Assembly: GCA_027450125.1 (NCBI GenBank)
Contig: DAIDKG010000253.1
Coordinates: forward strand, 1 to 8,112
Length of the DNA stretch: 8,112 bases
From: Bordetella sp.
GTDB lineage: Bacteria; Pseudomonadota; Gammaproteobacteria; Burkholderiales; Burkholderiaceae_B
Direction of reading: 5' to 3'
A program made the position numbers and the translations under genes. Positions 5,338 through 6,719 of the stretch are shown piece after piece. Below the pieces are notes generated by a model. It was not told the DNA's origin. It did no database searches and saw only the letters and a program-made list of their open reading frames with translations. The stretch's first letter is position 1. Each line of letters opens with the position of its first letter.

Positions 5338-5363
5338 TTCGGCGCACGGCCTGCCCGGGTTAC
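5338..5363 (-). promoter_or_regulatory. SigF-type ECF promoter of mrpX
   Basis: On the minus strand GTAACC (5363-5358) and CGAA (5341-5338) are exactly 16 bp apart, with T following to give CGAAT. The same pattern precedes sigF and msrP. The expected start near 5330 gives a leader of about 48 nt. GTAACC-N16-CGAA is the consensus I recall for NrsF-controlled SigF of Caulobacter. Confidence 0.85.
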
Positions 5364-5407
5364 ACCCCCGGCTGAAAAAGGCGGCGCGAATCGATGCGCG
5401 CCCCCCT

Positions 5408-5433
5408 GTAACCCAAAGCGTCGATGCCGCGAA
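5408..5433 (+). promoter_or_regulatory. SigF-type ECF promoter of sigF-nrsF (autoregulatory)
   Basis: GTAACC (5408-5413) and CGAA (5430-5433) are 16 bp apart, followed by T, identical in pattern to the mrpX and msrP sites. Transcription should start near 5440, next to or within the AGGAAAG ribosome binding site (5439-5445), so the leader would be only about 15 nt. The site implies positive autoregulation of the sigma/anti-sigma operon. Confidence 0.83.
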
Positions 5434-5454
5434 TAAACAGGAAAGCACCTATCG

Positions 5455-6027
5455 ATGCCGCAGCGAGATAGCAGCCAGGCGCAGTCCGACATAGAGGAAA
5501 GACTGAAAAGTCTTTTCTCGCGGGGTCTTGCGGGCGACGACGGGGCCTACCACGCCTTTCTCTCCGAACTCGGCAAGCGCCTGCGCGCCTATTTGCGCAA
5601 CCGTCTGCGCGGCCTGCCGGACGAAGTGGAAGACCTCGTGCAGGAAGCCCTCATCGCCGTCCACAATCAGCGCCATACCTACGACATGGCGCTGCCCCTG
5701 ACTGCGTGGGTGTATGCCATCGCGAAATTCAAGCTGGTCGACCTGCTGCGCCGGCGATCGCGCCAGGAGCTGCTGACCGACCCGCTGGACGATGCGTCGG
5801 ACGTATTCAGCGACTCGGATTCGCAGGCCATGCAGGCGCGGCGGGATGTGGCCAAGCTGCTGGACCTGCTGCCCAACAGGCAGCGCCTGCCCATTGTGTA
5901 CGTCAAGCTGGAGGGCCGGTCCGTGGCGGAAACGGCCGGCATGACGGGCATGTCCGAATCGGCGGTCAAGGTGGGCGTGCATCGGGGCCTGAAGGCCCTG
6001 GCTGCAAGAATCAGGAAGCAATCATGA
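5455..6027 (+). CDS. sigF: ECF RNA polymerase sigma factor, SigF-like
   Basis: 190-residue sigma factor of the extracytoplasmic-function group, having only sigma-2 and sigma-4 regions. Sigma-2 spans about residues 27-103, with VEDLVQEALIAVH (58-70, core-polymerase contact) and the -10-recognition segment TAWVYAIAKFKLVDLLRR (83-100). An acidic linker (about 106-123) follows, then sigma-4 (133-187) with the helix-turn-helix RSVAETAGMTGMSESAVKVGVHRG (155-178) that reads the -35. AGGAAAG at 5439-5445 lies nine bases before the ATG. The stop overlaps the start of nrsF (ATGA, 6024-6027), so the two proteins should be made together and form a sigma/anti-sigma pair. By the family model the membrane partner holds the sigma factor inactive until periplasmic oxidant or metal stress. 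It probably drives the three GTAACC-N16-CGAAT promoters, including its own. The symbol follows the Azospira/Caulobacter usage and does not mean the sporulation sigma-F. Confidence 0.92.
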   Translation: MPQRDSSQAQSDIEERLKSLFSRGLAGDDGAYHAFLSELGKRLRAYLRNRLRGLPDEVEDLVQEALIAVHNQRHTYDMALPLTAWVYAIAKFKLVDLLRRRSRQELLTDPLDDASDVFSDSDSQAMQARRDVAKLLDLLPNRQRLPIVYVKLEGRSVAETAGMTGMSESAVKVGVHRGLKALAARIRKQS

Positions 6028-6665
6028 AGACCGACGACCTTATCGCCATGCTTGCCCGCGATGCCGGCGCGGTGCAAGCCGATCGCGGCGGCAGACGTTT
6101 CGCGCTGGCCCTGGGCGCCGGCATGACATGCTCGGCGCTGCTGATGCTGACCACGCTCGGCCTCAATCCCGCTTTGGCCCGGTACCTCGAATTGCCCAAT
6201 TTCTGGATGAAGCTCTCCTTTGCGGCCGCCCTGGCCTGCATCGGCCTGGTCATCGCGCTGCGCCTGGCGCGCCCTGGCGTGAAACTGGGCCGCGCGCCGC
6301 TGGCCCTGGCCATTCCCATCCTGGCGATATGGGCTATCGCGGTGGCGACGCTGGTGCCGGGCAATGCCGCGCAACGCGCTGAAGCCTTCTTCGGCCAGAC
6401 CTGGGCCGTATGCCCCTTTCTCATTGCTATGCTGTCCATACCCGTATTCGCCGGCACGACCTGGGCCATGCGTGGCCTGGCGCCTACGCGGCTGCGGCTG
6501 GCCGGCGCGGCCGCGGGCCTGCTCTCGGGCGGCGCGGGCGCGGTGGTCTATTGTCTGCACTGCCCCGAACTGGCGGCGCCGTTCGTGGGGTTCTGGTATC
6601 TGCTCGGCGTGCTCATCCCCACGGGCATCGGGGCCTTGCTGGGCAGGCACTTGCTGCAATGGTAG
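6024..6665 (+). CDS. nrsF: Six-helix membrane anti-sigma factor, NrsF family (DUF1109)
   Basis: 213-residue inner-membrane protein predicted to sequester the ECF sigma factor encoded just before it. The cytoplasmic N-terminus (MKTDDLIAMLARDAGAVQ, 1-18) is typical of NrsF/DUF1109 proteins. Six hydrophobic helices are seen at about 26-46, 63-82, 91-111, 131-149, 157-178 and 186-206. With the N-terminus inside, C130 (start of helix 4) and C177/C180 (end of helix 5, CLHC) all fall at the periplasmic face. In Caulobacter NrsF two conserved cysteines near these positions are needed for sensing, so C130 with C177 or C180 is the likely redox or metal sensor. The ATG at 6024 overlaps the sigF stop, with AGGAAG at 6013-6018 five bases upstream, and the genes are surely co-translated. 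Family length fits. No terminator is seen after the stop; msrP starts 100 bp later behind its own promoter. Confidence 0.9.
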   Translation: MKTDDLIAMLARDAGAVQADRGGRRFALALGAGMTCSALLMLTTLGLNPALARYLELPNFWMKLSFAAALACIGLVIALRLARPGVKLGRAPLALAIPILAIWAIAVATLVPGNAAQRAEAFFGQTWAVCPFLIAMLSIPVFAGTTWAMRGLAPTRLRLAGAAAGLLSGGAGAVVYCLHCPELAAPFVGFWYLLGVLIPTGIGALLGRHLLQW

Positions 6666-6693
6666 GAGCGCAGCAATTAATTTCACCCGGGCG

Positions 6694-6719
6694 GTAACCT
6701 TTTTTTCACGCCGAACGAA
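6694..6719 (+). promoter_or_regulatory. SigF-type ECF promoter of msrPQ
   Basis: GTAACC (6694-6699) and CGAA (6716-6719) are separated by 16 bp and followed by TT. The spacer begins with a run of seven T (6700-6706). A second CGAA at 6712-6715 has only 12-bp spacing and is unlikely to be the -10. The predicted start near 6727 gives a leader of about 40 nt. The site lies after nrsF, so msrPQ can be made both from here and by read-through from sigF-nrsF. Confidence 0.85.

Follow-up and report, generated by a model that had tools for sequence, protein, structure and literature searches.

An 8,112-nucleotide stretch of Bordetella DNA (contig DAIDKG010000253.1, called the window throughout) contains three exact copies of the pattern GTAACC-N16-CGAA, located ahead of mrpX, of the sigF-nrsF operon and of msrPQ. 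These sites are probably SigF-dependent promoters of the type recognized by group 16 extracytoplasmic function (ECF16) sigma factors and would drive the three transcription units as one regulon against periplasmic oxidants, a reading to which we assign a probability of about 0.86. What the sequence itself shows is the three sites, how far they are conserved, the families of the genes and their synteny.

An earlier prediction, made from the window alone (the original prediction), had reported three GTAACC-N16-CGAAT elements with exactly 16-bp spacing, one on the minus and two on the plus strand, and no other GTAACC or GGTTAC hexamer. Both statements were borne out. The scan of the window gave three exact matches and no more, each extending to CGAAT, and the hexamers occurred only at 5408 and 6694 (GTAACC) and at 5358 (GGTTAC). 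The sites end 21, 46 and 55 bases ahead of the start codons of sigF, msrP and mrpX, respectively, and all three lie within 1.4 kb. Reversed-pattern controls gave 67 matches in 15 genomes (~69.0 Mb), or about 1 per Mb, which corresponds to approximately 0.008 matches expected by chance per 8.1 kb, compared with the three observed. At this rate three sites within 1.4 kb are not due to chance, as the original prediction had argued. Only exact matches carry weight, because the number of matches with up to two mismatches in the window (7 vs 3.67 expected) was not unusual, 15 of 200 shuffles also reaching 7. In the sister genome, G013, all three sites were present at the same places with diverged spacers.

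The conservation of the site was examined in relatives of SigF picked by protein similarity, without use of the motif. Four aligned sigma proteins served as the query and led to 381 confirmed loci, of which the best 80 (59-70% identical) were taken; the loci come from related species, so the counts are not independent events. The scan of 88 loci (780,262 bp), consisting of these 80, the window and L006-L012, gave 148 exact GTAAC-N17-CGAA sites vs 3 and 7 for two reversed controls, with at least one exact site in 85 of the 88. When gaps of 14-19 and CG[AT]A were allowed between -250 and +60 of the sigF start, a site was found in 74 of the 88 loci and all 74 had N17 and CGAA. GTAAC-17-CGAA was also the commonest combination (72 of 86 loci, the window and L006 being excluded) in an unbiased dyad search for a 5-mer, a gap of 10-22 and a 4-mer. 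Over whole loci, 78 of the best 80 of 381 had a forward exact site upstream of sigF, and the same scan found none there in L029 and L058. In 17 loci from plasmid records there were 22 exact sites vs 6 and 4 for the controls.

The original prediction had further proposed that alpha- and betaproteobacteria share this promoter code. The common type stands, since it is already printed as the ECF16 consensus (PMC3420878, PMC8315932), but the code is not identical. GTAAC-N16/17-CG[AT]A was located ahead of sigF in 10 of 13 alphaproteobacterial loci, only 4 of which had the exact N17/CGAA form, and it was not found ahead of sigF in Microvirga, Bosea and R. rhizoryzae. The unbiased dyad test restricted to these 13 loci was uninformative, as several are close Rhizobium relatives with too much common sequence.

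In the proposed mechanism, SigF would be held by NrsF, whose studied relatives are membrane anti-sigma factors, and would be freed when an oxidant or metal outside the cytoplasm acted on the two invariant cysteines of NrsF. Freed SigF would then raise the expression of its own operon, MrpX and MsrPQ. The methionine-rich MrpX, which is predicted to be exported, may be oxidized in place of other proteins, and MsrPQ would reduce the methionine sulfoxide back. Studied relatives are the basis for the proposed promoter activity, for NrsF acting as an anti-sigma factor, for the signal and for MrpX as a sacrificial protein. MsrP is also known as YedY.

The promoter type is not new, and the window appears to hold a real ECF16 (SigF-NrsF) regulon of known wiring. 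The Caulobacter SigF motif, GTAACC-N16-CGAA, which the original prediction had given correctly, is accompanied by mapped 5' ends for CC2907, CC3254 and sigF (PMC3511200). The consensus printed for ECF group 16 is tGTAACc-N16-CGAA, and mapped 5' ends back the same promoter type in Bradyrhizobium, where a shorter spacing is described for EcfF (PMC3420878). For Brucella BcrS, mapped ends led to TGTAAC and GCGAA elements both at the operon of BcrS itself and at the MXKDX-msrQP operon (PMC8315932).

Four systems resemble the window closely. Caulobacter crescentus SigF-NrsF (ECF16) has the same motif, the sigF-nrsF operon, a YedY target and two functional NrsF cysteines, and its reported inducers are chromium and cadmium; unlike in the window, yedY is unlinked, the other targets in its table are two DUF2282/DUF692/DUF2063 operons, and mrpX is absent from that table (PMC3511200). 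In Brucella, the ECF16 sigma/anti-sigma pair BcrS-AbcS adjoins an MXKDX protein and MsrPQ (bcrXQP), both promoters have mapped 5' ends and induction is by hypochlorous acid (PMC8315932), whereas mrpX and msrPQ in the window are separate, on opposite strands, with one predicted promoter each. Azospira suillum has the same sigF/nrsF/mrpX/yedYZ set, which PMC4623255 describes as a methionine cycle that detoxifies hypochlorite. In Cupriavidus metallidurans, the region identified as gigPABT-rpoQ-rsqA by gene order, its record having no gene tags, also has a divergent sigma/NrsF pair and two exact ECF16 sites (L144, 3236 on the minus and 3271 on the plus strand), but its payload, with relatives of BufA, BufB, BufC and DoxX, is bufferin-like instead of MrpX/MsrPQ. 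The gig promoter is described as not identified, the dependence of gig on RpoQ as unproven and rpoQ-rsqA as RpoD-dependent in the relevant passages of PMC10304878. The occurrence of NrsF and sigma genes within bufferin clusters has already been published (PMC12452194), and a literature search combining MsrPQ, Bordetella and ECF returned 0 papers.

Table 1. Predicted promoters, upstream elements and genes in the window.
Feature	Position	Strand	Basis
Predicted SigF promoter of mrpX (-35 GTAACC 5363-5358, -10 CGAA 5341-5338)	5338..5363	-	Exact match; kept in G013
Predicted autoregulatory SigF promoter of sigF-nrsF	5408..5433	+	Exact match
Predicted SigF promoter of msrPQ	6694..6719	+	Exact match; present in G013
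T-run, UP-like third element, 11-15 positions upstream of mrpX -35	5375..5379	-	Sequence; family profile
T-run, 10-12 positions upstream of msrP -35	6681..6683	+	Sequence; family profile
Aldo/keto reductase	3986..4936	+	PF00248
mrpX, predicted exported protein, 79 amino acids, 12 Met, MXKDX-like	5043..5282	-	Composition and position
sigF, ECF sigma factor, 190 amino acids	5455..6027	+	Sigma70_r2, r4_2; PRK12536 above cut-off
nrsF, NrsF/DUF1109 anti-sigma factor, 213 amino acids	6024..6665	+	PF06532, E 2.6e-65
msrP, molybdenum methionine sulfoxide reductase subunit	6766..7734	+	NF003767, E 1.2e-142, above cut-off
msrQ, cut by window end	7736..8110	+	NF003831 partial match, below cut-off

The gene families (Table 1) agree with the original assignment of the sites to mrpX, which encodes a methionine-rich protein, to the ECF sigma factor operon sigF-nrsF and to msrPQ. 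The gene order is RNase E gene (minus strand), RluC-like gene, HAD gene, aldo/keto reductase, mrpX (minus strand), sigF, nrsF, msrP and msrQ. No SigF site of its own was found for the aldo/keto reductase in the hexamer search of the whole window. SigF has only regions 2 and 4 (Sigma70_r2, residues 38-103; r4_2, residues 130-182). The predicted sigF transcript start coincides with a likely ribosome-binding site (5440-5455), and matches in many relatives start near residue 14, so that the start codon may lie further in. The nrsF start and the sigF stop overlap by 4 bases (6024-6027). Cys130 and Cys180 of NrsF were conserved in all 76 aligned relatives from 81 loci, 5 matches being too short to align. 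A simple hydropathy profile of NrsF had seven peaks, two of them overlapping (119-137 and 131-149), compared with the six transmembrane segments of the ECF16 criterion. A second NrsF relative precedes sigF in L025, L058, L068, L087, L088, L135 and L140 (the same locus as L008), and that of L008 is without the cysteines corresponding to Cys130 and Cys180. MsrQ scored below its cut-off because the gene is cut at the window end; it is complete in G013.

Comparison of gene neighborhoods suggests how msrPQ came to stand beside sigF. In the genus, msrP follows the HAD gene in 11 of 12 other loci, the remaining one, L201, being cut by the contig end, and no SigF site was found within 300 bases upstream of msrP in these 12, L201 covering 119 bases there. 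Outside the genus, msrP was found in 46 genomes of the family; in the best 28 of the 46, examined as loci, the HAD gene was beside msrP in 25, and none of the 28 had SigF in the stretch examined or a site ahead of msrP. L249 had two looser matches, on the other strand. The short gap between HAD and msrP in the relatives is filled in the window by the aldo/keto reductase gene and mrpX-sigF-nrsF, and among the loci compared only the window and G013 had this block together with an msrP SigF site. The sigma factor is patchy: a search at E 1e-20 found it in 8 of 41 genomes, including the window's own, and in three of the 8 the identity was only 33-38%. Insertion of the block is the simpler reading. 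The msrPQ operon would be the older part; the mrpX-sigF-nrsF block and the aldo/keto reductase gene would have entered upstream of it, and msrPQ would then have gained its SigF promoter. It is thus likely that the SigF wiring was added later to an older repair gene.

The genes behind the divergent site, which in the window is that of mrpX, were assigned by reference searches, because shadow frames had confounded a clustering based on every open frame. In the best 80 of 381 loci, BufA/BufB relatives were present in 43, and cytochrome b561 with a molybdenum oxidoreductase in 15, six of which (L013, L015, L016, L017, L027 and L038) also had MsrA; neither payload was found in 22, 5 of which cover less than 800 bases upstream of sigF. 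The bufferin payload of L014 matched the Pfam families DUF2282, MbnB_TglH_ChrH, DUF2063 and DoxX. The exact divergent site was present in 34 of the 43 bufferin loci, 14 of the 15 b561-molybdenum loci and 4 of the 22 with neither. Of the 10 payload loci without it, 8 had near matches (one mismatch or N18, in one case both), which are weak evidence. A quick tree of 119 sigma proteins grouped the window, G013, G102 and G057 (95 by the Shimodaira-Hasegawa-like approximate likelihood ratio test), and all four have a small Met-rich protein on the divergent side. In G102 and G057, a second exact site follows nrsF on the same strand as sigF (L123, 5795-5820, minus; L124, 4375-4400, plus) and resembles the msrP site of the window; there is no MsrP there. 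With 'other' set aside, a minimum of 7 changes of payload label is required on the sigma tree, many forks of which are weak. The promoter thus appears to have stayed through repeated changes of the genes behind it.

A third element was profiled in 132 distinct sites from 81 loci (the 80 and L007). Upstream of GTAAC, T occupied positions -14 to -10 in 57-81% of the sites, and a run of four T residues lay within -24 to -7 in 76 of 132, the corresponding counts being 342 of 16,200 for random 18-mers and 16 of 525 for stretches located further upstream. This position would suit a UP-like contact with the C-terminal domain of the RNA polymerase alpha subunit. The passages on ECF16 in the literature name only the -35 and -10 elements; the T-run is not claimed as a first report. 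In 59 divergent pairs, a run of three T residues preceded the site facing sigF in 45 cases and the site facing the payload in 26; contrary to this trend, the mrpX and msrP sites of the window have a short T-run and its sigF site does not. The distances between divergent -35 elements (59 distinct pairs, for example 5363/5408 in the window) form clusters around 34, 45 and 57 bp, which differ from one another by roughly a turn of the helix. Helical phasing is a lead only: the fitted period is broad (~12), the relatives are not independent, pairs at 84 and 148 were dropped beforehand and the G013 pair is at 29.

Several observations weigh against the three sites forming a SigF regulon, 1) the 15 genomes contained 33 exact matches vs 67 reversed-control matches, so that there is no genome-wide enrichment, 2) MrpX scored below the NCBIfam TIGR02953 cut-off (23.7 bits, E 3.3e-5; cut-off 41) and NrsF scored 152 vs an NF042994 equivalog cut-off of 300, 3) the predicted sigF leader is only ~14-16 nucleotides long and the sigF start codon is therefore uncertain, 4) in the next-nearest SigF loci, G102 and G057, no GTAAC-N15..19-CG[AT]A site was found at sigF and the distance from the divergent site to the start of the Met-rich gene is 526 and 539 bases, respectively, 5) the window's own genome is 73% complete and 6) transcripts from the sigF promoter could extend into msrPQ, a scan between nrsF and msrP having found no terminator.

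In an alternative view, only the divergent pair ahead of mrpX and sigF-nrsF represents SigF promoters, the msrP site being weak or a chance match and msrPQ being transcribed by read-through from sigF-nrsF or by another sigma factor; the negative terminator scan speaks for it. Since 40 related loci have no such site at msrP, msrPQ can work without one, and in Caulobacter the induction of yedY is described as only partly SigF-dependent (PMC3511200). However, the msrP site is exact at 10 specified bases in a promoter position, where chance would provide about one per Mb, and it was kept in G013 with its CGAATTA tail and upstream T-run around a diverged spacer, which makes this explanation unlikely. 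It is far less probable still that the hexamers are transcription-factor binding sites, for example an inverted GGTTAC...GTAACC operator, and not sigma promoter elements. The divergent -35 elements do form an inverted repeat, GGTTACA...TGTAACC, with the clustered spacings given above. On the other hand, the msrP site is solitary, CGAA at a gap of 17 was the most frequent partner in the unbiased search, the invariant gap in all 74 sites is that expected of a -35/-10 pair, and in Caulobacter, Bradyrhizobium and Brucella the mapped 5' ends identified the same elements as -35 and -10. SigF-dependent promoters thus remain the preferred interpretation of all three sites.

The original prediction had held that the pattern defines the regulon by sequence alone and had suggested a genome-wide search to list further targets. 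This search was run, and with the exact pattern no commoner than its control, the pattern as a stand-alone method was rejected; the promoter code is real at these loci and alone is insufficient to list the regulon. Eleven of the 33 matches were at sigF, mrpX, msrP or bufferin loci (G000, 3; G013, 5; G010, G011 and G012, 1 each). Four of the other 22 were inspected; one in the window's own genome and two in G013 were inside frames, and one in G010 was ahead of a valS-like gene. The own genome had four matches, the inspected one lying antisense within a long frame read by eye as ispH. The exact site ahead of the valS-like gene (~65-80 bases; L215, 3559-3584; gene named by eye) is identical in G010 and G011, with no SigF link known. 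The seven matches in G013 included the three counterparts of the window sites, the two inside frames and a divergent pair (2,990,510/2,990,585) that separates a remote bufABCD operon from a DUF1223 gene. An exact site also preceded the closest BufB relatives in G010, G011 and G012; no such BufB was found in the window's own genome, which is 73% complete. The G013 bufferin operon is a second predicted SigF target, and this regulon make-up has precedent, because Caulobacter SigF controls YedY and DUF2282/DUF692 operons (PMC3511200).

A broader and more tentative proposal, which we consider somewhat less probable than its negation, is that ECF16 modules use one rigid promoter code behind which periplasmic defence cassettes are exchanged, and that the module in the window captured the older msrPQ by an added promoter. 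The code would comprise TGTAACC, N16 and CGAAYWA, preceded at a distance of ~10 bases by an AT-rich UP-like tract; the -35 elements of divergent pairs would be spaced by steps of a helical turn (near 34, 45 and 57 bp), and the cassettes would be copper bufferins, a molybdenum reductase with MsrA, or MrpX with MsrPQ. If the SigF interpretation is true, the methionine-based oxidant defence of this lineage would be under one sigma factor, with three testable promoters, and promoters would be predicted at the Cupriavidus region taken as gig-rpoQ, where the relevant passages of PMC10304878 report no identified gig promoter. The window would also provide a polarized example in which a regulatory module arrived next to a repair operon of older standing and brought it under its control.
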